Source of the DNA: a virus
Length of the DNA stretch: 36,906 bases
Virus record (IMG/VR): IMGVR_UViG_3300032236_001561
Location: 1-36,906 of that record
Reading direction: 5' to 3' (one strand)
Positions 5,830-29,991 of the stretch are shown in pieces. Under the pieces are notes generated by a model. It had not been told where the DNA came from, searched no databases, and saw only the letters and a program-made list of their open reading frames with translations. How positions within the stretch are numbered: position 1 is the stretch's first letter; each line of letters opens with the position of its first letter. A program made the position numbers and the translations under genes.

Positions 5830-6837
5830 ATGGCAGCCAGACAAATACTGATGGCGGTGATCGAATCGAGCTACGGCACCGCCAAGACCTCGCCCACGCT
5901 GGGCACTGATTCGTTTTATCTCAGGCTCGACCAGGATAACGCCTTCACGATGGAAGCCGATCCGGTCCAGCAGCCGATCAGCTACGGTGGCGGCCTGGAG
6001 ATCGAGGGAGACGTGGTTGCCGACCTGGTCGAATGCAAGGGGGCGTTCAGCTTCACGCTCTGGCCGGGGGTCTGGTCCAGTGTCCTGCTCAACTGGGCAC
6101 TCACCACAATCAACAGCGGCCGGACGGCTCCGTGGACGACGACCGACGCGAACAACGTCATGCCCGTGGGAGACCTCGCCAGCCTCAGCTTCTACCACGC
6201 CTACCTGACCGAGGATGGAAGCACGTACAAGCGCACCAGGTACGCCGGATGCAAGGCCGAGAATATCACGCTTGCGGCATCCGAGACCGGCCAGGGGCGT
6301 ATCTGGAAGCTCAGCGGCAACGTCACGGGCATCAAACCCGTGGGCAACCCCTGGGATAGCTCGACCGACCCGACCTCGACCGAGTTCCCGCTCCCGGCCG
6401 AAACCAATTACCCGACCGGGCCGTACACGTTCGGCCACCTGGGATCGGGCACGGGGACGGTGACGGTCGGCACCAACCGTGCGGCGTCTTGCATGTCGCT
6501 CAGCCTCAGCGTGAAGAACACCCTTACGCCGAACTACTACGCCAGCCGGTTCCTTTCGACCCACCGGTTCGTCGGTCGCCAGACGACGGCCGATCTGACG
6601 CTCCTGTACAAGTCCACGCCAGACGACCGGGGCAGTTACCGCAGCCTCTCGCCCCTGGCGACTTCGTTTAAGATCGACAACGGCGTGAACTCGATCGCAC
6701 TCTCGTTCAACGGCAAGAACGTGATCCGGCCCTGGAAGCGGGCGTTGCCGAACGCGCAGCAGTACCAGCAGCAGCTCACCATCGCGAACAGGTGGGATCC
6801 CAGTGCCGCGACGGACATCACGCTGACTACGGCATAG
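5830..6837 (+). CDS. Major tail tube protein (335 aa)
   Basis: ATG at 5830. Beta-rich protein with typical tail-tube features: a start MAARQILMAVIESSYGTAKT, then DSFYLRLDQDNAFTMEADPV, alternating strands and a C-terminal region resembling siphophage tube proteins that stack as hexamers around the tape measure. Length is at the upper end for the group, so an extra beta domain in residues about 190-300 may decorate the tube. It lies between the terminator candidate and the tape measure, the conserved position. Its 3' end overlaps an oppositely oriented membrane gene by 11 bp. Confidence 0.7.
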   Translation: MAARQILMAVIESSYGTAKTSPTLGTDSFYLRLDQDNAFTMEADPVQQPISYGGGLEIEGDVVADLVECKGAFSFTLWPGVWSSVLLNWALTTINSGRTAPWTTTDANNVMPVGDLASLSFYHAYLTEDGSTYKRTRYAGCKAENITLAASETGQGRIWKLSGNVTGIKPVGNPWDSSTDPTSTEFPLPAETNYPTGPYTFGHLGSGTGTVTVGTNRAASCMSLSLSVKNTLTPNYYASRFLSTHRFVGRQTTADLTLLYKSTPDDRGSYRSLSPLATSFKIDNGVNSIALSFNGKNVIRPWKRALPNAQQYQQQLTIANRWDPSAATDITLTTA

Positions 6838-7207
6838 GCGTGAGGTTGCGATCGAAGGTGAACATCGCCTGGCCCCGGTGTTCGCCTTCCAGCACGTTGA
6901 TGAGTGACGCCTTGGATTTCAGGTCGGTCGAACCAACGGGCAGGAACTTCTGGTCGATCGCAACCACGCGAACCTTGGTACCGTCGGCCATCAAATGCCC
7001 GTTGCACCGATCCGTGTCGCGTTTCTCTCGGCACTCCCAGGCGTTTTTGTGCCAGGCGATTCCCCTGGCCATGTATTCCTTGCCGGGAGTTGGGGCGCTC
7101 GAAGTGAGTCGAATGTCTGAAGTGAGATACGCCATGAACGCCAAGGCGAGCCCAACAGGCAACAGCAAAGGCAGCGGAAACTTCTCGGTCTTGATTTCAT
7201 TGTCCAT
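6827..7207 (-). CDS. Minus-strand single-pass membrane protein inside the tail operon (126 aa)
   Basis: Start ATG at 7205-7207, preceded on the minus strand by AAGGGGCC. An upstream in-frame extension to 7237 exists but overlaps the tape measure start. Residues 1-10 are charged, and residues about 11-28 (FPLPLLLPVGLALAFMAYLT) form one hydrophobic segment. A roughly 95-residue soluble domain follows with one Cys pair (CREKRDTDRC). Topology suggests an anchored protein with an outside domain. It faces against the whole late operon and fills the place where siphophages usually encode tail chaperones, so it may be a prophage-expressed moron such as an exclusion factor. Family not recognised; function inferred from topology and orientation. 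Confidence 0.65.
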   Translation of the reverse strand: MDNEIKTEKFPLPLLLPVGLALAFMAYLTSDIRLTSSAPTPGKEYMARGIAWHKNAWECREKRDTDRCNGHLMADGTKVRVVAIDQKFLPVGSTDLKSKASLINVLEGEHRGQAMFTFDRNLTPMP

Positions 7208-8871: not shown

Positions 8872-11616
8872 ATGCCAAGCGCCACAGATCCCGCCTGGAG
8901 GTTCAAGGTCGGCGGCTCCACGTTCGCCTTGCCTCACCCGAATCTCCGCCTGACCAACTGGCTCGTCTTCAACCAGAACGGGAACAGTTCGCTCTCCTGG
9001 AGCTGGCAGGGCGGAGCATTTCCCACGCGATCCGGCGATCCATTCGTGGGCAAGACGATCACCCTGGAGATGGACACCGGAAGCGGGTTCGTGCTCGTGT
9101 TCTCTGGCGCGTGCCAGAGTATGCCCGTGGCCAAGGGCGGGTTCGGATGGCAGCGGACCTACACGGCCGACGGCCTGGCCACGCTCGCGGACTATGTCCC
9201 GATCACAAACAGCAACACCAACGCCGATCGGTTCGTCTTCAACGCCGACCCTGACGACACGATCAACTACAACGCGGCCCGGGCCGGAAGGACCGTCGGT
9301 CAGATCCTGCTGGCCGTGTTGACCGATGCGACCATGGCGACGCAGCTCGGGGCCCTGGGCGTCGGTGGCTACACCAGCTCGGGGACGGGCGGCTCGGCCC
9401 ACGCCACCGTCTCGACTGGTTCGGTGACGGCCATCGCCGTCGATACGGGCGGCGACGGCTACACGGCAGCCCCGACCGTGTACCTCTCCGGCGGCGGCGG
9501 TTCTGGAGCGACGGCCACAGCCACCGTCAGCGGCGGAGCCATCACCGGAATCTCGGTCACGGCCGGCGGCACTGGGTACACCTCAGCCCCTACGGTCTGG
9601 ATTGCTCCCTTACCCTTGGCCACGATCAGAGACCTTGCCAGCTTCACGGTGATCCCGCCTTTCCAGGTCGACGTCTCGGGCGAGCATAGCTTGACGGTAT
9701 TACAGCAGACGCTCAAGCAGATCGAGCCGAACGCCTGGCTCCAGGTCCAGGCCGACGGGACGATCCGCGTCTGGGATCTACGACAGTTCGGCTCGGGTAA
9801 TTCACCTTATCCTGGCGCTACGACAGTTCAGATGGACCCGGATTCGACCGGGGCCAACCCCGACCTAGTCGACGTCGGCGGGCTCCAGTGGACGCTCGAC
9901 ACCCGAGGTCAGGCCAGCCGGATCGTGGTCAGGGGCGAAGACTACTCCGAGATGAGGTTGTATCAGACGTCCGACGGTTCGCTCATGGAGTTCTTCGGCC
10001 ATGACGGGCTCAGCAACAGCCAGGCGAAAACAGCCTGGAAGCCGACCGACTGGAACGGCTCCAGCCTGAACGCCGGCCAGGCCACGGCAACCTGTACGCT
10101 CAGCTCTGGGGCCGTGGGGACGATCACCCTGGGTTACGGCGGGTACGGATACTCGAGCGCCCCGACGGTGATCTTCACTCCCACGGCGGCGGGATCCGGG
10201 GCCACGGGTCACACCTCGATCAGCGGCGGAGCGGTCTCGGCCGTCACGCTCGACTCAGGCGGCTCTGGCTATACCTCCGGGGCAACGGTCAGCATCGTGG
10301 GCGGAGGCGGCACAGGGGCCACGGCAACGGCCACCGTCAGCGGAGGCGTAGTCACAGCCCTGACGTTGACGTCCGGCGGCTCCGGGTACTACTCGGCTCC
10401 CACCCTGGTCATCACCGGAACCGGGGCCGGCTCAGGCGCAGCAGCCACGGCCACCATCAGCGGAGGCGTGGTTACCAGCATCACCAAGACGTCCTCCGGC
10501 TCCGGGTACACCACGGCCCCCAGTATCACCCTCACGGCGCCGTTCGGGGGCAACGGAGACGCGGGGACGTGCGTATGTGGAGACACCCTTCACGTCACCC
10601 TGTTCCCAGCCAGCTCGTCGAAGACCTGGCCGGCGAACTACTGGGATCAGAGCGCGACGGGGAAACAGGCGATTATCTGTCTGCACTCGGCAGTGAACAG
10701 CGGGATCACGCTCTCGGTAACGCGGAAGATTGTCGCCAATACGGCGCTTTCCGCCGGCGGCTCCTGCACGGTCACGTTCGACCGGGCCATCCCGAACACT
10801 CAGTACGACAGCTACGTGATCCGGGGGCTCAGTAACTCCGGGGCCATTACCTGGCGGCGGTACAAGCCGAGCGACCCCGTACTGGCGGCCCGGCTCAGGC
10901 CCCGGGCCTCGTTCCCCAGCCCGCTAACGAACGCCAACGGCAACTCAGCTCAGAGCACGTCCACCCCGCTCTGTGAGATCGACTGGTCCAGCTCAGGGTC
11001 GGCCCCTTACTACACGGCCACGATGGGGATCTCGGTCGACTCGGTCGACGGGTGGGTGGACGTGGAGAAGCCCGTGGTCATGGTGTACGGAACGCAGGCC
11101 TCCAGCTACAGCGACGGAGTGCCGGCCAACGTGCGGATGTTCCTCCCGACGCGCACGGACTCGCTCCAGGTTCAGGCCCCGGCCGACGTGGCGGGCGCGC
11201 CTCAGTATTCGGGCAGCCTATACTCGATCGAGGGGATCAGCCGCACGTACACCGTGACGGTCCCGCAGTGGCGTGATCCTGGCAACTCCGGCAATATCCA
11301 GGCGTATGCCCAGAGCTTGCTTGATGCGATGAGCAACACGATCATCGAGGCGACGATCCCGTTCGCCAAGCTCGACACGCGCTGGCTCACACCGGGGCAG
11401 GCAATCCAGCTCACCGGCGGCACGTATACCACCGGGTACGAGGCCGTGAAGGTCCCCGTGGTCGAGTGCCAGATCGAGTTCAGTCAACCGGGGCGCGGGT
11501 GCAGGTACCGGACGACGATCCGGGCGAGCAACCGACGCGGGGCATACACGGCAGCAATCTACGAGCGGCCATCACGCGAGCCGATGCTTTTCGGCCTTCA
11601 AGGGGGATCACAATGA
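8872..11616 (+). CDS. Tail hub/tip protein with inserted repeat modules (914 aa)
   Basis: ATG at 8872 immediately follows the tape measure stop. Residues 1-173 and 250-403 look like hub or distal tail domains ([35 protein letters not shown]), and residues about 560-914 form the C-terminal tail-tip part. Two blocks of Gly/Thr-rich repeats are inserted at residues about 174-247 (two units) and 404-557 (about four units), with the pattern GGxVTxIxxTxGGSGYTSAP. Such repeats form small beta modules in phage and cell-surface proteins. The interrupted hub sequence suggests the modules were inserted into a pre-existing hub and may protrude to bind the host. Next gene overlaps by ATGA. Confidence 0.65.
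9391..9612 (+). repeat. First block of GSGYTSAP-type repeats in the hub gene
   Basis: Encodes two units of about 37 residues ending [11 protein letters not shown] and [11 protein letters not shown] (hub residues about 174-247). The flanking hub sequence reads as continuous if the block is removed. Confidence 0.8.
10081..10542 (+). repeat. Second block of GSGYTSAP-type repeats in the hub gene
   Basis: Encodes about four units related to the first block ([39 protein letters not shown]; hub residues about 404-557). The units also share runs such as ATATVSGG at DNA level, so unequal exchange between copies is likely. Confidence 0.8.
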
Positions 11617-21142: not shown

Positions 21143-21327
21143 GCACACGACCAACCGCCGAGGAACTGGCCAAACAAGCCCTTCTCGTTCTCGACCGCCA
21201 GAAGGCGTTCTTCAAGGAACGTCCTGGCTCCGAACAAAAAGCCGCAGCGCTGGCGCTTTCAAAGTCGGCCGAAGCCCAGCTCCGCAAGATGGCCGACTCT
21301 ATCCTTAGCCCTTCACTCTTTGACTGA
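21139..21327 (+). CDS. Hypothetical small early protein (62 aa)
   Basis: ATGA overlap with the zinc-motif gene. All-helical, basic (EELAKQALLVLDRQKAFFKE, SAEAQLRKMADSIL). No motif. Coupled to the replication genes, so an accessory role there is possible. Confidence 0.65.
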   Translation: MSTRPTAEELAKQALLVLDRQKAFFKERPGSEQKAAALALSKSAEAQLRKMADSILSPSLFD

Positions 21328-21340
21328 CCGAGGCAAAACA

Positions 21341-21826
21341 ATGCGACACAAACGACACTTCGCCCCCACCGTCAACGCACTCGAAAACCGTGAATCACTC
21401 TCTGGCCTGCACCACAAGCCAGTACACGCACCACGGCACGCACACGTTCGCCCGATGGCAGACCGTGCACCACATGAGGCTGCCCAGGCTCACCACACGG
21501 GAACGCTGGTGAAGGGTGTGGTCACGCTTGACGCGCCAACGCCCACCGTTAACAGCGTGGTCACGACGCAGACGGGCACCGGCTCGCTTGCGATTGGCGG
21601 CACCCGCTACACCGTGGACGTGGCCCTGATCACGCAGGGGCAAGCGGGGACGCTGACGATCAGTGAGAACAACGGCAGCACGATCACGGCGAACGTGGAG
21701 ACACTGCCAGACGGCAGCGTGGGCAACTACCAGATCATAAACGCCACCGGCGACTTCGCTGGCGTGGCTGGGACCGGGATGTACACGGTGAGCAGCGGCG
21801 TAGTTGTGTTCAACGCACACGAGTGA
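21341..21826 (+). CDS. Cargo protein with planctomycete-type extracellular N-terminal tag (161 aa)
   Basis: Start at the ATG at 21341; a short upstream extension to 21320 is less likely. The first 25 residues read RHFAPTVNALENRESLSG, matching the LExRxLL-type N-terminal signature of planctomycete extracellular proteins. A His/Ala/Arg-rich linker follows (residues about 25-55). The rest is a beta domain with NYQIINATGDFAGVAGTGMY and Thr/Gly-rich strands. No classical hydrophobic signal peptide is visible. It looks like a host-surface or exported protein carried as a moron. It is the main sequence evidence for a planctomycete host. Confidence 0.65.
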   Translation: MRHKRHFAPTVNALENRESLSGLHHKPVHAPRHAHVRPMADRAPHEAAQAHHTGTLVKGVVTLDAPTPTVNSVVTTQTGTGSLAIGGTRYTVDVALITQGQAGTLTISENNGSTITANVETLPDGSVGNYQIINATGDFAGVAGTGMYTVSSGVVVFNAHE

Positions 21827-22202: not shown

Positions 22203-22403
22203 ATGCTTGTACTGTCGAGACACCGCGAAGAGTCGATCATGATCGGCGATGACATCTGTATCACCGTGGTTGAAATCCACGGCAACAAAGTACGCCTCGG
22301 GATTACCGCTCCGAGGGACGTCAGCGTTCACCGCTGGGAACTCTGGGCAACACTCAAGGGTTTGATCACCGCACCGGTACGCAAGTTCGTAAAAGGGACG
22401 TGA
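22203..22403 (+). CDS. csrA: Phage-encoded CsrA/RsmA translational regulator (66 aa)
   Basis: Close match along the whole length to the CsrA consensus: MLVLSRHREESIMIGDDICI, then VEIHGNKVRLGITAPRDVSV and HRWELW (the conserved HRxE segment that contacts RNA). About 15 residues beyond this end extend past the usual length. CsrA dimers bind GGA motifs near ribosome-binding sites and block or change translation. In a phage it could rewire host carbon storage and motility, or time phage mRNAs. ATG at 22203 after AGGAAGG; it is one base before the next gene. Confidence 0.92.
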   Translation: MLVLSRHREESIMIGDDICITVVEIHGNKVRLGITAPRDVSVHRWELWATLKGLITAPVRKFVKGT

Positions 22404-22644: not shown

Positions 22645-23008
22645 AAATGAAAAGCCTCGCGATCAATACAAGGAGTACCGCAGGCCCGGCGAACTCCTCG
22701 CCAGCGAAGTAGCCCGAACGATCGGCGTGAGTATCACGACGATTCAGAAATGGACCAGGCTTGGCTACATCAAAGCGCGGGCGGTTCAGGTTAAGGGCCG
22801 TCCCAATGGCGTTAATTTCTACACGCACGAAGACGTTAAAGCCGCGCTGAAACTCAGGGAGGGCGACAAGATCAAATACTCAAGCAAGCCACCGTCCGAG
22901 TGGGGCAGGATCTACGCGCTCAAGCACCACCCAGGACCAACAAACGAAGCGATTGACTATTACCGTCGCGAGTGGAAAGCGCTCGCCAGACACAGGATCA
23001 CGGCATGA
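22634..23008 (+). CDS. MerR-like HTH protein (124 aa)
   Basis: GTG at 22634 after GGAG at 22623; it overlaps the XRE gene by 11 bases. Residues about 18-60 (LLASEVARTIGVSITTIQKW, TRLGYIKARAVQVKGRPN) match a MerR/excisionase-type winged HTH, followed by a basic helical C-terminus. A DNA-binding regulator or terminase-like accessory is possible. Its stop overlaps the resolvase start (ATGA). Confidence 0.65.
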   Translation: MASENEKPRDQYKEYRRPGELLASEVARTIGVSITTIQKWTRLGYIKARAVQVKGRPNGVNFYTHEDVKAALKLREGDKIKYSSKPPSEWGRIYALKHHPGPTNEAIDYYRREWKALARHRITA

Positions 23009-23921: not shown

Positions 23922-24974
23922 TCACCGACTCAACTCGGCACGCATCAGGTCCACGGCCTGGTCCAAGTGCGAATAGATCCGGCTCGTGATCGTGCTCGAC
24001 GCGTGGCCAACGATGGCTGACACCACAGCCAGCGGCGTTCCTTTCGCGAGCAGGTCAGTTACGCACCGGTGACGAAGCGCGTAGGCCACGACGTCCGAAC
24101 CGAGGCCGGCACGCTCGCGACACCTCCGAAACGCGTGACCGATTGCATCCTTGGTCCACGGGTTACCCCGGCTGTTCACGAACAGGTGCCCGCCCGGCCG
24201 CGCCTTGATCGTCGCCTCGATGCGCGGGATCCAACCCGTCGGCAAAACGATCTGCCGCTTCTGCCCCGTTCGATGTGTACTCTTGCCCGGCAGCACGATC
24301 GAGCCAGAACCCGGCCGATAGTCTCCAGCACGTGCCCGAGCTGCCTCACCAGGCCGGCAGCCCGTGGCCAGGATAAACTCGTACAGTTCGCGGAGTTCCG
24401 AGATCTTAATCTCCGCCGCGAATCGTTCGAGATCGGCTGTTGAAGGGATCGACTCCCGACTGATCGACCGACGCGGCAATCTCAGGGGGTCCAGGGGGTT
24501 TGAATGGATGAGCCCCTCACGTTGAGCCCACCGGAACGCGAGCTTGATCGTCGCGGTTGCGTCGTGCTTCCTGGTCTGGCCCCAGCCCTGGCTCTCGACC
24601 CAAGCGCGAACCGCCGCCGGCCGGAGCTTGGCAACTGGCGTGTCTCCCAGCTCGTCAGGCAGGGACTTGAGCCGGTCGGAGTACGACCGCCAGGTGATCT
24701 CCGCCAGGTCGCCAGACTTGACCCGAGCTTTCTGGTGGTCGAGCCACTGGGCCACGACCTGACCGGTTAGCAACCCGGACGCTTCGACCGCCTCAGAGCC
24801 CGCCCTGGACGTCGCCAGCGGCTCAGCCTCATATCCGGCCGACAGACGGGCGAACTCCGCCTGGGCGTCACGCTGGGTGCCTTCCGGCCCCGTTAGACGA
24901 ACCTTCCGTCCCCGGACGTGCGCGTACCACGATCCTCGATCGCCCCGTCTCCAGGGCTTGCCGTACTGGCCCAT
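23922..24974 (-). CDS. int: Tyrosine recombinase integrase (350 aa)
   Basis: ATG at 24972-24974 with AAAAGGG upstream. Core-binding domain at residues about 68-165 and catalytic domain at 175-345: R207 in TGCRPGEA, K231/K239 region, YALRH (Y298, R301; the usual first His of HxxR is Tyr here), H324 in IVGHAS and nucleophile Y334 in RIYSHL. The N-terminal 60 residues could form an arm-binding domain. Arm repeats and a tRNA fragment lie just upstream, giving a complete integration module. The Tyr in place of His is a tolerated variant in some families; activity is likely but not proven. Confidence 0.93.
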   Translation of the reverse strand: MGQYGKPWRRGDRGSWYAHVRGRKVRLTGPEGTQRDAQAEFARLSAGYEAEPLATSRAGSEAVEASGLLTGQVVAQWLDHQKARVKSGDLAEITWRSYSDRLKSLPDELGDTPVAKLRPAAVRAWVESQGWGQTRKHDATATIKLAFRWAQREGLIHSNPLDPLRLPRRSISRESIPSTADLERFAAEIKISELRELYEFILATGCRPGEAARARAGDYRPGSGSIVLPGKSTHRTGQKRQIVLPTGWIPRIEATIKARPGGHLFVNSRGNPWTKDAIGHAFRRCRERAGLGSDVVAYALRHRCVTDLLAKGTPLAVVSAIVGHASSTITSRIYSHLDQAVDLMRAELSR

Positions 24975-25010
24975 GTGTATACCGACCCTTTTCTGTTCCG
25001 GAACCGTTGC

Positions 25011-25248
25011 GGAACCATTCCGGAACCATCGACCGACGCTGAACGCTTCCGCGTTCGCAAACGCCTTATTTTTAGTGGAGCGGAAGGGGATCGAACCCTC
25101 AACCTCAGCATTGCGAACGCGACGAACAAGACCGCGTGATTTACGGAAATCACTGGAAAACAGGCTTGCAACTCACTTGTACGCTATCGGCTAAAGTTGC
25201 GAAAGTCGGGTTCTTTCGGGTTATTCAGGAACCATTCCGGAACCATCG
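25011..25248. other. attP region with integrase arm repeats
   Basis: A 21-bp direct repeat (ending GGAACCATCG) occurs at 25011-25031 and 25228-25248, on both sides of the tRNA-like core. Each is built of two related GGAACC units; a further CGGAACCGTTG lies at 24999-25009. A separate inverted pair (CGCGTTCGCAA at 25050-25060 and its complement at 25111-25121) brackets the core. No gene lies between 24975 and 25321. Confidence 0.75.
25076..25117 (-). other. attP core: 3' half of a tRNA-Ala(CGC) gene
   Basis: On the minus strand the sequence runs from the anticodon loop TTCGCAA (anticodon CGC) through TGCTG, the variable loop AGGTT, a T-arm (GAGGG TTCGATC CCCTT) and CCGCTCC plus A. Position 70 is T and position 73 is A, as in tRNA-Ala with its G3-U70 pair. 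No matching 5' half (GGAGCGG) is present, so it is not a working tRNA. It is the kind of segment that restores a host tRNA gene on integration. Confidence 0.75.
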
Positions 25249-25321: not shown

Positions 25322-25879
25322 ATGGTTCGCCGACTCAACGACCAGCAACGCGAACTCGTCACGAAGCACCTGGACTTTGCACTCTGGGTCTCCCGGTCCA
25401 CCGTGGCCCGGTTCCCGAACGAGGTCGAAGAGATCCACGCCGTGGCCCGGCTGGAGTTGGTCGAGTCCGCCGCCCGGTTCGACCCCTCGCTCGGGTTCCG
25501 ATTCACGACCTACGCGGACCGCCGGATCCGCTGGAAGCTCCACGAATGGGTCACGACGCAGCGCCGCAACGATTCGGTCGGCCTCCGTGCCGACGATGAG
25601 AGTGACCCTCTTGGGCTCGTTCCTGATCCCGCCGCTGATCACCAGGTCGTCGACGTGATCCGGTCGCTCTGTACGCCCCGTCAGGCCGACGTTCTGGTTT
25701 TGCTGGTGGTCGAAGGGCTCTCAACCCGAGGGGCCGCCAACCGCCTGGGAGTCAGGCAGCAGACCGTCGAAGTTCTGGCCGGGCGGGCGAAGCGACGGGT
25801 CCAAGAAAAACTCGGGTTCCACCCCGAGCCGACAGACACACCCGAAAAAAATTCCGGAGGCCGACGCCGTGCCAGCTAA
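25322..25879 (+). CDS. Sigma-70 family factor at the head of the late operon (185 aa)
   Basis: Start at the ATG at 25322 with GGAG upstream; a longer in-frame extension to 25136 crosses attP and is unlikely. Region 2 signature at residues about 45-75: ESAARFDPSLGFRFTTYADR, RIRWKLHEW. Region 4 HTH at about 125-160 (LSTRGAANRLGVRQQTVEVL). The factor probably redirects host RNA polymerase to phage late genes, which start downstream. No region 1 or 3 is clear. A consensus promoter upstream is not obvious. The next gene overlaps by 11 bases. Confidence 0.85.
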   Translation: MVRRLNDQQRELVTKHLDFALWVSRSTVARFPNEVEEIHAVARLELVESAARFDPSLGFRFTTYADRRIRWKLHEWVTTQRRNDSVGLRADDESDPLGLVPDPAADHQVVDVIRSLCTPRQADVLVLLVVEGLSTRGAANRLGVRQQTVEVLAGRAKRRVQEKLGFHPEPTDTPEKNSGGRRRAS

Positions 25880-26234
25880 CCAGTACACGCCGTTCCGCGC
25901 AGACTTCCCCGGGTTCGCCCTGCTCGACGCCCTGGCCGTGATCAAGGACCAGGCCGCGAACACCCCGGCCGGGCGGGTCCAGCTGGCCCACTCGGCTTAC
26001 GAGCTGCTCGGCTGGGGTGCTCACGCCACCCTGGAGGCGAGCGAGAAGGGTCACTTCTTCGGTGAATCCCCCGCCCCGCTCACGGACGATGAGGCGTTGT
26101 CCCTTCTGGAACAGGCCAACGAACCGCCTGACGGCATGAAGGCCGCGTTCTGCCCGATCACTCCTGGCACCGCCTTGAAGCTCGCCGGGTGGCTGCTCAA
26201 GGCGGCGGAGATCATCTTGCCGGTGCTCCTGTGA
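25869..26234 (+). CDS. Hypothetical late protein with hydrophobic C-terminus (121 aa)
   Basis: GTG at 25869 with GGAGG before it. Acidic N-terminal helices, then a C-terminal hydrophobic or amphipathic helix (residues about 100-121, ALKLAGWLLKAAEIILPVLL). A tail-anchored membrane association is possible. Being next to membrane and peptidase genes suggests a lysis or envelope role, possibly holin-like; nothing specific confirms it. GTGA overlap with the next gene. Confidence 0.6.
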   Translation: MPANQYTPFRADFPGFALLDALAVIKDQAANTPAGRVQLAHSAYELLGWGAHATLEASEKGHFFGESPAPLTDDEALSLLEQANEPPDGMKAAFCPITPGTALKLAGWLLKAAEIILPVLL

Positions 26235-26554
26235 GCCTGTCGTACTACGTGCTCGCAGGGATCGCCGGCCTTGCCGTGACGATCCTTTTTCTGGACTTGC
26301 TCGACCCCGCAAAGAACGCCACCACCTACGAGGCACCGATGACCGTTAGCCAAAAGCTCACCGAACTGACAGCGGCCGTCAACAACGTGACCGCCACCGT
26401 TCAGGCTCAGTCCGCTCAGATCGTGGACCTGAAGGCCCAGATTCAAGCCGCGCAGGCCGACAAGGCTCAAGCCGAGGCCGACGTCGCCACGATCCAGGCC
26501 CAGATCGACGCGCTCAACGCCCTGGCCGTTCCGGTCGCCCCTCCTGCTCAGTGA
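26231..26554 (+). CDS. Membrane-anchored coiled-coil protein (107 aa)
   Basis: GTG at 26231 within the previous stop (GTGA). Residues about 2-22 (SLSYYVLAGIAGLAVTILFL) form one transmembrane segment. Residues about 45-95 form a long coiled coil (VNNVTATVQAQSAQIVDLKA, QAEADVATIQAQID). An N-terminal anchor with a periplasmic coiled coil resembles spanin- or holin-associated proteins. Part of the presumed lysis cassette. Confidence 0.6.
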   Translation: MSLSYYVLAGIAGLAVTILFLDLLDPAKNATTYEAPMTVSQKLTELTAAVNNVTATVQAQSAQIVDLKAQIQAAQADKAQAEADVATIQAQIDALNALAVPVAPPAQ

Positions 26555-27063
26555 GGCCCGCCGTGCTTCTCGCTCTTCTGCTCACGCTCGCTCTCGACAT
26601 TCCCCACGTTCAGGTAATCGACCTGGACGGCGGGGAACCTCGCCATCTGGTTGTCGTGATCGACGGCGAGCCGTACAAGATCGTCTCGATCCCGGCGGGC
26701 TCAGGGCCAAGTCCAATCCCTGGACCTGGTCCCGTTCCGCCGCCAGCTCCGCCAGTTCCGCCGCCGAGCCCTATCGACGGTACGCTCTGGGTCACGTACA
26801 TCGTGCCCGACGCGCCCAGCGTGGCCGACGCTGCCGTTACCTCTCACGCCCCGCTCAGAGCCAGGATCGACGGCAAGTCGGTCTCGTGGCGACTCCAATC
26901 GGCCAGTGATGCCGAGATCACCCGGCGGCACTTTGAAGAGCACGCCAAGGCCGCGCCTATTGCCGTATTTCAGGACGCGAGCGGCAAAGTGTTAAAGACC
27001 GTGAAGGGCAACGACCCGGCCGCGATCCTGGACACGATCCGCGCGTACAAAGGGGGCAACTGA
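26551..27063 (+). CDS. Secreted Pro-rich protein (170 aa)
   Basis: GTG at 26551 inside the previous stop. Residues 1-16 (MRPAVLLALLLTLALD) look like a cleavable signal peptide or short anchor. A Pro/Gly-rich linker (residues about 50-75) leads to a mixed domain of about 90 residues (DAEITRRHFEEHAKAAPIAV). Probably exported to the envelope. It overlaps the peptidase start (TGATG), so the two may act together. A spanin-type or inhibitor role is open. Confidence 0.65.
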   Translation: MRPAVLLALLLTLALDIPHVQVIDLDGGEPRHLVVVIDGEPYKIVSIPAGSGPSPIPGPGPVPPPAPPVPPPSPIDGTLWVTYIVPDAPSVADAAVTSHAPLRARIDGKSVSWRLQSASDAEITRRHFEEHAKAAPIAVFQDASGKVLKTVKGNDPAAILDTIRAYKGGN

Positions 27064-27884
27064 TGCAGCCTCAATTTCCGCTCCCCTTCCACAAAGACAC
27101 CACCGGCCATTATCGCCCGCTCGGCCTGGTTCCGCCGCTCATGGGCTCGATGCCGCCTGTTTGCGAGTTCGCGGTCCCGGTCATCCCGGAATCTCAGTGG
27201 CAAGAGTTCGACCTGACGACCGAGCCAGGGTTCCCGCTGGTGGTGAAAGACCAGAACGGCAAGGGGGCCTGTAACGGCCACGCCACGGCTACGGCCATGG
27301 AACTGTCGCGCTGGCTGCACGGTCAGCCGCACGTGCCGTTGAGCGGCTGGTTCCCCTACGCCATCCTTTGCGGCGGCTGGGATCGTGGCTCAAGCATCGG
27401 TGAAGCTCTGGCGCTGATTCAGAAGACCGGGCTGGCTCCGGAGTCACAAGTCCAGTACGGCACGATCAACCCGACCAGGCTCTCTAAGGACGCCTACGAT
27501 GTCGCCACGAATTACAAGGCGGAGGTCGGTATTCCGCTTGATTCGTGGGAAGAGATCATGTCGGCCGTCCAACTGCGCACGGGCGGCGTGAATGTGTCGA
27601 TCCGCTGCCCAAATCTCCAGCCGTGGGGCACGGACTCCAGCGGATCACTCCCGGTCATTCCCGGCCAAGGGAACCACGCGATCTGTATTGGCCTGGGAGC
27701 GCGAAAAGGTCCGCGCGGCTGGGAAATCAAATGGCAAAACTCATGGACGGACAAGTGGGGCCAGAACGGCTACGCCTGGTACAGCCAAGGACACTGGGAG
27801 AAACAGAACGGCCGTGAAGCGTGGGTGATCCGCACGCCGATTGAAAACCCAAGAGATGACTCCAACCCGCCCGTCGGGGCGTAG
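27063..27884 (+). CDS. Papain-fold (C1-like) cysteine peptidase (273 aa)
   Basis: Catalytic layout of papain: Q64 (VKDQNGKGAC) six residues before C70, H205 (GQGNHAICIGLG) and N226 (KWQNSWTDKWGQNGYAW, equal to the NSWGxxWGxxGY box). Spacing and motifs match family C1. No signal peptide and no clear inhibitory propeptide are seen, so it would be made in the cytosol in mature form. It sits among membrane and secreted proteins before the terminase genes, where an endolysin is expected, and no lysozyme or amidase was found elsewhere. It may cut envelope protein or peptide cross-links at lysis, or act on phage or host proteins. Confidence 0.85.
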   Translation: MQPQFPLPFHKDTTGHYRPLGLVPPLMGSMPPVCEFAVPVIPESQWQEFDLTTEPGFPLVVKDQNGKGACNGHATATAMELSRWLHGQPHVPLSGWFPYAILCGGWDRGSSIGEALALIQKTGLAPESQVQYGTINPTRLSKDAYDVATNYKAEVGIPLDSWEEIMSAVQLRTGGVNVSIRCPNLQPWGTDSSGSLPVIPGQGNHAICIGLGARKGPRGWEIKWQNSWTDKWGQNGYAWYSQGHWEKQNGREAWVIRTPIENPRDDSNPPVGA

Positions 27885-27895
27885 AAACACCACCC

Positions 27896-28177
27896 GTGAC
27901 AATTGAGCAACTGGTCGGAGTGTTGGCGTCAAACGGGCTAAGTGTCGCGCTTGTGGTGTTCTGGGCCTGGAAAGCAGCCGATAGAGAAAACCTTCTGAAC
28001 GAGCGAATTCAAAGACTGGAAGAGACTGTTAGCGGGTCGCTCCAAACGCAACTCAAGGAATCGACGCTCGCGATCCTCAAAGTTACAGAAGCCCTAGGTC
28101 GTCATGAAGACGTTGTCGAAGAGGTGTTAACGGAACTTCGTGCAACGCGAGCAAGCAATGAGCGAAACGCCCGATGA
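27896..28177 (+). CDS. Holin/spanin-like membrane protein with coiled coil (93 aa)
   Basis: GTG at 27896. A hydrophobic segment (residues about 5-26, LVGVLASNGLSVALVVFWAW) is followed by a charged coiled coil (NERIQRLEETVSGSLQTQLK). Small, one pass, and next to the peptidase, so a holin or spanin role is plausible. The second such protein in the cassette is at 26231. It overlaps the small terminase start by 20 bases. Confidence 0.6.
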   Translation: MTIEQLVGVLASNGLSVALVVFWAWKAADRENLLNERIQRLEETVSGSLQTQLKESTLAILKVTEALGRHEDVVEEVLTELRATRASNERNAR

Positions 28178-28508
28178 AAAAGATGGTTCGCTGAGTCCAC
28201 GGAAGGACCAGCGGGTCATTCAACGGGCACTCAAAGAGCGTTGGCCGATCCCGGAAAGCATCCGGGCAAAGTTGCTCCAGAAAGCCGTCGACCTGGTCGA
28301 CGAAGAGACTGAGATCGGAGCCAAGTATGCCGGCAAGCCGCGCGTGATACTGGCGGCCCTGAAGACGATTCAGGGTTTTGACCGCTTGAGCCTGGACGAA
28401 CGCCGGCTAGAGATCCTGGAAGCGGCCAAGAAGGAGACGGTGGACGAGATCACCGTCGACGTGATCGCACAGGCGAAAGCGATCCGGGAGAAACGCCGTG
28501 GCGTCTGA
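28158..28508 (+). CDS. Terminase small subunit candidate (116 aa)
   Basis: Start chosen at the ATG at 28158; a longer frame starts at 28140. Helical and charged (RVIQRALKERWPIPESIRAK, VDEITVDVIAQAKAIREKRR). Size, helix content and the position just before TerL fit a small terminase subunit, which picks the packaging site. No clear HTH is seen, so the call is mainly by context. It overlaps TerL by 11 bases. Confidence 0.6.
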   Translation: MSETPDEKDGSLSPRKDQRVIQRALKERWPIPESIRAKLLQKAVDLVDEETEIGAKYAGKPRVILAALKTIQGFDRLSLDERRLEILEAAKKETVDEITVDVIAQAKAIREKRRGV

Positions 28509-29991
28509 CCTGGCCGAACTCCTGGCCGACTGTTACGACGATCCTGGGCTGTTCCATGAGGCGATTTTGGGCCGGTCGCCACTGCACGCAAAACAGGAAG
28601 CGATCGCCCGGAGCGTACAGACAACGCCGATCACCGTCGTTCCGGCGGCTCACGCGGTCGGCAAGAGCTGGGTCGCGGCGACGATCGCGCTCCACTGGAT
28701 TGTGACCAGGCCCGGCGCGAAGATCGTCACGACGTCAGTGTCGAACAACCAGCTCGTGAACGTGCTCTGGTCGAGTATCAAGGCGGCTCACCGGTCAGCA
28801 CGAATCAAGCTCCCCGGCCGCGCGTCCGAGGGGTACGCGATTCCGCAGAGGCTCGATATGGGGCCGGACTGGTTCGCGGTGGGATGGAGCGCGAAACGGT
28901 CGGAGTCGTTCGCGGGCGTCCACGGTGAGGACGTGCTGGTGATCGTCGACGAGGCGAGCGGCGTCGACCAGGCCATCTTCGACGCGATCGAGTCGCTCGG
29001 TTACACCCGGCTCCTCGTGCTCGGGAATCCGATCCGCGCCACCGGTCACTTCCGGGCGTTGTACGATCAGGCCCGGGCCGGCCAACCTGGGTACGCAAGC
29101 CACCACCTCACCGCGTTCGACTCGCCTTATGCAGACCTGACGGACGAGGAGGTCCGCGAGCGAGGCTTGCCGTTTGGGCTCACGACGAAGACCTGGATTG
29201 AGCGCGTTCGACGGCTCTACGGTGAATCGTCGCTGTACTGGCTCACCCGCGTTCTGGCGAAGTTCCCCGAAGAGGATCACGACCAGCTTATTCCAGACGC
29301 CTGGGTCGACCGGGCTTACCTGGCTCCTCGGGGACGCGAGTTCCCGGGCCTTCGCGGCTTAGCCGTCGATATCTCCAAGGGCACCGGCCGCGATAGGTCG
29401 GTTCTGATCGTGGGTGACGACCTGGGTCTTATCGATCTAGAAGCCAGTAACACGATATCGCTCCCGGCCGTGGCTAACTTGGTGGCTCAGAAGTGTGCCC
29501 GGTTCGGCATCCCACAGGACCGGATTGTCTATGACGCGGGCGGCTGGGCTGGCTCAGACTTTGGCCGGTACCTGGAGGCCGTGGGCATCACCGAAGCCAT
29601 CCCCTACCACGGCTCCGGCAAGGGCGGGAAGTGGTACGCGAACCGCCGCTCGAAATGCGCCTGGATCCTCCGCCGGCGGCTCGATCCTGATCGTCAGATT
29701 CTCGTGGAGCCGATCCCTAACCCGACCGGCGACGTGTACCCGGCCATTGCCCGGAGCAAGCCAGACAAACCCGTGGAGACGAGCCGCATTCAACCGCCGT
29801 ACTCGATCCCCGCTCACGTGGTCGGTTCTCACTGGGGAGACTTGCGGGAGGAGCTGCTGGCGCTCAAGTACAGCCACACCGAAGCGAAGATCGCACTCGA
29901 ACCCAAGGCCGACCTGGTTGAGCGGCTGGGACGGTCTCCAGACATCGCGGACACGATGATCATGTTAGTGTCGCTCTGGCCGGATCTTTGA
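28498..29991 (+). CDS. terL: Terminase large subunit (497 aa)
   Basis: GTG at 28498. ATPase: Walker A AAHAVGKSW (A51-W58), Walker B VLVIVDEAS (146-154, D151/E152) and a coupling motif LGNPIRATGHF. C-terminal RNase-H-like nuclease: D291 (LAVDISKGTGRDRS), D346 (YDAGGWAG) and the late PDIADTMIM segment. It pumps DNA into the prohead and cuts it. The circular permutation of the assembled genome is compatible with headful packaging, but that is not proven. Confidence 0.9.
   Translation: MASDLAELLADCYDDPGLFHEAILGRSPLHAKQEAIARSVQTTPITVVPAAHAVGKSWVAATIALHWIVTRPGAKIVTTSVSNNQLVNVLWSSIKAAHRSARIKLPGRASEGYAIPQRLDMGPDWFAVGWSAKRSESFAGVHGEDVLVIVDEASGVDQAIFDAIESLGYTRLLVLGNPIRATGHFRALYDQARAGQPGYASHHLTAFDSPYADLTDEEVRERGLPFGLTTKTWIERVRRLYGESSLYWLTRVLAKFPEEDHDQLIPDAWVDRAYLAPRGREFPGLRGLAVDISKGTGRDRSVLIVGDDLGLIDLEASNTISLPAVANLVAQKCARFGIPQDRIVYDAGGWAGSDFGRYLEAVGITEAIPYHGSGKGGKWYANRRSKCAWILRRRLDPDRQILVEPIPNPTGDVYPAIARSKPDKPVETSRIQPPYSIPAHVVGSHWGDLREELLALKYSHTEAKIALEPKADLVERLGRSPDIADTMIMLVSLWPDL

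Follow-up and report, generated by a model that had tools for sequence, protein, structure and literature searches.

The sequence analysed here (the window) is the whole of IMG/VR virus record IMGVR_UViG_3300032236_001561, 36,906 nucleotides in length. Genes were called with a simple script, which was checked against the open reading frames of the window. A direct repeat of 123 nt is found at the two ends and makes a complete genome very probable, so that truncation would not account for the lack of an endolysin discussed below. The genes of interest run in the order integrase, sigma-like gene, three small genes for proteins with a hydrophobic helix or a signal peptide, papain-type peptidase, transmembrane (TM) protein gene, TerS-like gene, large terminase subunit (TerL), portal and capsid. 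The upstream landmark is the integrase-like protein of a temperate phage (23922-24974, minus strand), which clusters with integrase-like proteins and occupies the same place in relatives. Beside it, at 24877-25194, the frames give VERKGIEPSTSALRTRRT and GAEGDRTLNLSIANATN, which is characteristic of tRNA ends when translated; no whole tRNA was detected there by ARAGORN, and the segment is likely the attachment-site remnant of a tRNA gene. An RNA polymerase sigma-factor-like protein (25322-25879, plus strand; phrog_351, E = 2.4e-10) is encoded immediately upstream of the cassette, where a late regulator would be expected, and the downstream landmark is TerL (28498-29991, plus strand; phrog_2, E = 4.1e-25), preceded by the small terminase-like (TerS-like) gene at 28140-28508. 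The arrangement matches that of phage lambda, in which a late regulator is followed by the lysis genes and the terminase. Short proteins that begin with MLVLSR and resemble by eye CsrA, a host RNA-binding regulator, were also noticed in the window (22203-22403) and in the related genomes G013 (11359-11553) and G009 (22795-22995).

The gene at 27063-27884 (plus strand) is an open reading frame with an ATG start, encoding a protein of 273 amino acids that we regard as the candidate lysis enzyme. Its sole Pfam match is Peptidase_C1 (PF00112; E = 3.7e-9, 37.4 bits against a cut-off of 20.7), and no peptidoglycan hydrolase domain was recognised in it. The catalytic residues Q64, C70, H205 and N226, which lie in papain order as the earlier note had stated, are invariant in 16 of 16 family representatives and in 18 of 18 diverse homologues, the copies of a megaphage and of a Paludisphaera prophage included. 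The comparison of a predicted structure with C1 peptidases, proposed in the same note, gave a confident AlphaFold2 model (pLDDT 82.6) whose best solved match in Foldseek is xylellain (3ois; E = 2.8e-11; VIA Z 22.7, rmsd 3.1 over 232 residues), with cathepsins next, so that model and match agree with the papain fold that defines Peptidase C1. By profile, catalytic set and predicted fold, the product is thus a genuine papain-family (C1) peptidase, and this assignment is far above chance because of the Pfam score, the invariant catalytic residues and the structure matches. The phage peptidase shares with xylellain and the C1A enzymes (PF00112) the fold, the Q-C-H-N order and an NSW...WG..G motif, but it differs from them in being phage-borne, in lacking a signal peptide (none was found in the window protein or in the relatives checked) and in having no propeptide domain in Pfam. 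It is also, unlike C1A enzymes, nearly always paired with an exported partner, and its identity to xylellain is only ~22%.

This partner, c1, is encoded directly upstream (26551-27063, plus strand), and its stop overlaps the start of the peptidase gene. The 170-residue protein starts with a signal peptide and a small beta-hairpin module, which a proline-rich linker joins to a C-terminal domain that AlphaFold2 and Foldseek assign to the thioredoxin fold. Members of the family mostly have 155-180 amino acids with the same succession of hairpin module, proline-rich linker and C-terminal domain, and an N-terminal hydrophobic segment is present in 62 of 67. With thioredoxins the partner has in common the beta-alpha-beta-alpha-beta-beta-alpha order and a conserved proline at the cis-Pro position, but the CxxC redox motif is absent from all 17 aligned members, and the signal peptide, the linker and the N-terminal hairpin are additions. 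No Pfam or NCBIfam family scored above cut-off for the protein, and a scan with the single sequence returned only the closest relative already known.

Three further small proteins adjoin the pair, all encoded on the plus strand. The first (25869-26234, 121 aa, family c27) has a C-terminal hydrophobic or amphipathic helix without any family match and is a candidate holin-like component. The second (26231-26554, 107 aa), with an N-terminal TM helix and a coiled coil, is a candidate holin or inner-membrane spanin with weak Rz-like matches (phrog_214, E = 1.6e-3; phrog_739, E = 3.5e-4 for the protein of a relative), and no lipoprotein partner (o-spanin) for it was seen in the window. The third (27896-28177, 93 aa), another candidate holin-like component, has an N-terminal TM helix and an amphipathic tail, and it matches phrog_1009, of unknown function (E = 2.9e-3). 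Together with the partner, these proteins confirm that, as had been claimed from the sequence, the peptidase gene lies among genes for membrane or secreted proteins before the terminase. No family model identified a holin among the small TM proteins beside the peptidase.

A profile scan of IMG/VR yielded 90 relatives of the peptidase, of which 80 were kept. The partner family lies directly upstream of the peptidase in about 74 of 81 loci, the pair recurs in about 75 IMG/VR loci, the two genes overlap by 4 nt in 44 of the 65 loci measured, and the partner was present in all 20 peptidase-bearing records searched; c1 thus looks like the obligate half of a two-gene unit, which the earlier note, in proposing a lysis enzyme, had overlooked. 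In many other relatives tail fibre genes and then small TM genes precede the partner and the peptidase, and the genes for a MuF-type protein, the S78 prohead protease and the capsid come after them in that order. The pair is also carried by the 595-kb megaphage LR756511.1, where it sits outside any evident late structural block and the peptidase is only 31% identical. A protein encoded near the megaphage pair (L085:13173-13769) bears a CAQCH...GRMPPKD motif as in planctomycete cytochrome-type domains, which hints at a planctomycete host.

The earlier note had suggested looking for relatives beside holin genes in other planctomycete phages; the pair does occur in planctomycete prophages, and no holin was recognised by a family model. 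In the prophage of Paludisphaera soli JC670, whose genome we traced via locus L138, an integrase gene is followed by the partner, the peptidase (E = 1e-33), three genes for membrane proteins, TerL, the portal and the capsid protein (MCP). Among 45 genomes of the same order, the phage-type peptidase was found in two more, G460 (a prophage) and G435 (two phage contigs). In G460 the pair occupies one end of the prophage, and no TM gene adjoins it. The location in a lysis cassette beside membrane proteins is evident in the window, the P. soli prophage and the main IMG/VR group, and weaker in G460. Hits in G306, G101, G163 and G026 were set aside as cellular C1 proteins, being longer or xylellain-like with no partner gene seen. 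Homologues of staphylococcal nuclease, often bearing signal peptides, turn up repeatedly within or close to the cassette (IMG/VR clusters c14 and c21, e.g. L019 and L280:2318-2671), and the P. soli prophage encodes one at its end (G024:C114:118196-118678, equivalent to L260:13196-13678; Pfam match 1.4e-23); it is possible that they are exported nucleases clearing DNA at lysis.

Loci found by means of the peptidase are biased towards it, and we therefore drew a sample of 80 loci by way of another gene, located upstream of the cassette; 60 of these loci had enough downstream sequence. In this independent sample and DISPLACEMENT, a peptidase of the type described above (the first type) was present in 41 of 60 loci. 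A second type of C1 peptidase takes the same slot in another 14 and overlaps the partner gene where inspected; the two types never occur together, and five loci have neither. A papain of either type thus fills the slot in 55 of 60 loci. The second type, of ~300 aa, has its own Q, C, H and N and matches Pfam at 1e-6 to 1e-4 (28.5 and 22.6 bits), and it has almost no sequence similarity to the first. The N-terminal module of the partner is kept with both enzymes (44-52% identity over ~55-65 residues), whereas the C-terminal module is a thioredoxin domain in partners of the first type; with the second type another module, apparently helical, takes its place. Such a pattern suggests a common task at the envelope for the N-module and a C-module fitted to the enzyme; alternatively, C-module and enzyme could have been exchanged together in one recombination whose breakpoint fell in the linker. 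In records L339-L341 (e.g. L339:3085-4740 and L340:7572-9227) a thioredoxin-like partner is kept with a MuF-type protein directly after it, which may point to an independent function of the partner; no papain was found in these records with a profile that is blind to the second type and had no positive control in that set.

Peptidoglycan (PG) hydrolases were sought in three batches of scans, which took in nearly all protein families of at least 75 aa in eight complete genomes, each through a single representative. None of the Pfam families of such enzymes was among the matches listed for the window and seven other complete relatives, in lists that leave out a few families at E values of ~3e-5 to 1e-3, and the earlier statement that the window has no lysozyme, amidase or transglycosylase holds among those matches. 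A six-frame search for Amidase_2 was negative in all 20 records. For the P. soli prophage, where the scan took in each of the 33 called proteins and the output lists every one of the 13 matched Pfam families, Peptidase_C1 was the only candidate and no PG hydrolase was found. The protein at 6827-7207 (minus strand) was considered as a 3D/RlpA-type wall enzyme or endolysin and rejected, as the full motif is missing and no homologue occurs in any fetched relative; it is an orphan 126-aa membrane protein encoded between the tail tube and tape-measure genes, possibly a moron. G023 (L125/L126), a 40.5-kb relative by TerL, has neither papain nor partner nor recognised PG hydrolase. As a possible case of displacement of one enzyme by the other it speaks neither for nor against, and because of this papain-less relative the missing endolysin alone proves nothing. 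G023 also carries ParA/ParB and resolvase genes and is probably a phage-plasmid.

Compared with the window one protein at a time, the phage contigs of G435 show identities that mostly fall at 65-87% (86.5% for the tail tube, 68% for the peptidase), and for this reason the window phage most likely infects planctomycetes of the same order as P. soli (Isosphaerales, according to the P. soli record). At 21320-21826 of the window, an N-terminal ALENRESLS motif resembles a planctomycete-specific signal sequence and fits such a host. Most Planctomycetales have no genes for PG synthesis and possess cysteine-rich YTV wall proteins (PMC8567305). P. soli, G460 and G435 have no MraY above cut-off, whereas G101 and G306 do. 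MurG is undetectable in P. soli (best 20 bits against a cut-off of 250), the one genome with the pair or a close phage that this comparison covers. The YTV wall-protein repeats gave 13 matches in P. soli and none in G101 and G306, both planctomycetes with MurG. Judging from these gene contents, synthesis of standard PG appears to be beyond the genomes holding the pair, in which case an endolysin directed at PG would find little substrate.

Taken as an explanation of the whole locus, the best-supported reading is that the protease is the envelope-degrading lysis enzyme, as the earlier note had proposed. The planctomycete host, the missing mraY, the missing murG and the YTV repeats of P. soli, the failure to find a PG hydrolase in complete relatives and the papain in 55 of 60 slots favour that proposal, but G023, without papain, likewise shows no visible endolysin. 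Also against it count the uncertain holin, the G460 pair with no adjoining TM gene, the partners of L339-L341 with no papain found by the profile used, and the PG demonstrated in some planctomycetes. We consider it fairly probable that, in the lysis module of this temperate planctomycete phage, a papain-type protease and a dedicated exported partner replace the PG-cutting endolysin. Late in infection, the partner would be exported by Sec to the periplasm or wall, and the small membrane proteins (25869-26234, 26231-26554 and 27896-28177) would act like holins and open the inner membrane. The protease could then leave the cytoplasm, join the partner via the C-terminal module of the latter and cut the proteins that give the envelope its strength, for which the cysteine-rich YTV-repeat wall proteins are the best candidates, until the cell bursts. 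We would give about an even chance to the wider proposition that a papain-family protease cuts the structural protein wall of PG-poor hosts under the guidance of a secreted two-module adaptor, with a constant N-module for the envelope and an exchangeable C-module fitted to the enzyme. Lysis without the peptidase-partner unit may occur in G023.

Enzymes adapted to a non-standard wall have a precedent in the pseudomurein endoisopeptidases (C71, PeiW/PeiP) of methanogen phages, cysteine peptidases fitted to the wall of their hosts. The analogy is functional, as PeiW and PeiP belong to a different peptidase family and their substrate is a cross-linked sugar-peptide polymer. The endolysins of the CHAP and NlpC/P60 families, which belong to the papain superfamily, resemble the phage peptidase in being Cys-His enzymes in the lysis slot without a signal peptide; they are, however, PG amidases or peptidases of other families, whereas the phage peptidase has no such domain and its hosts lack MraY or MurG. 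Searches of open-licence papers brought up neither papain-type lysins from planctomycete phages nor lysis by proteolysis of a protein wall.

Three other roles have to be weighed against a function in lysis. The peptidase might attack or take over the host by degrading an envelope, periplasmic, defence or regulatory protein, for instance in superinfection exclusion or shut-off, with lysis left to unrecognised proteins. The mobility of the module, which extends to a megaphage outside any late structural block, would suit such a role, as would G023. Nevertheless, a single late-gene slot that is filled in 55 of 60 loci, by one or the other of two C1 types, looks more like the place of an essential function than of an accessory one, and the gene lies among late genes rather than early or lysogeny genes, so that we regard host attack as unlikely. 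Even less favoured is a protease of the virion, which would mature phage proteins or digest the envelope at entry from the particle. In several groups the pair does come after tail-fibre genes or before head genes, and the window itself has no separate prohead protease that could be recognised. Many relatives, however, encode a dedicated S78 prohead protease next to the pair and separate from the papain, which argues against head maturation, and we do not class the peptidase as a head maturation protease; the signal peptide of the partner and the overlap of the two genes, moreover, fit the periplasm and not the virion.

It is also conceivable that the C1 fold has turned into a PG peptidase, as in CHAP and NlpC/P60 enzymes of the same superfamily, making the protein a true PG endolysin. 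Its structural relatives include phage C1 proteins annotated as muramidase or peptidoglycan-binding. Several planctomycetes are disrupted by lysozyme and PG has been demonstrated in some species (PMC4432640), and thus some hosts do have PG. Nevertheless, the hosts tested lack MurG or MraY, the nearest solved relatives are protein-cutting C1A enzymes, and the 81 relatives span 191-297 aa, leaving no room for a fused cell-wall-binding domain; a PG endolysin is accordingly, in our estimate, very improbable.

The reading as a lysis protease bears on how phages escape from bacteria that lack most genes for PG synthesis, and the peptidase-partner unit could also yield lysis tools for planctomycetes. 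As the pair occurs in the cultured P. soli JC670, the question is testable at once. The load-bearing component of the planctomycete envelope has been disputed for decades, and a phage enzyme that breaks the envelope would point directly to that component.
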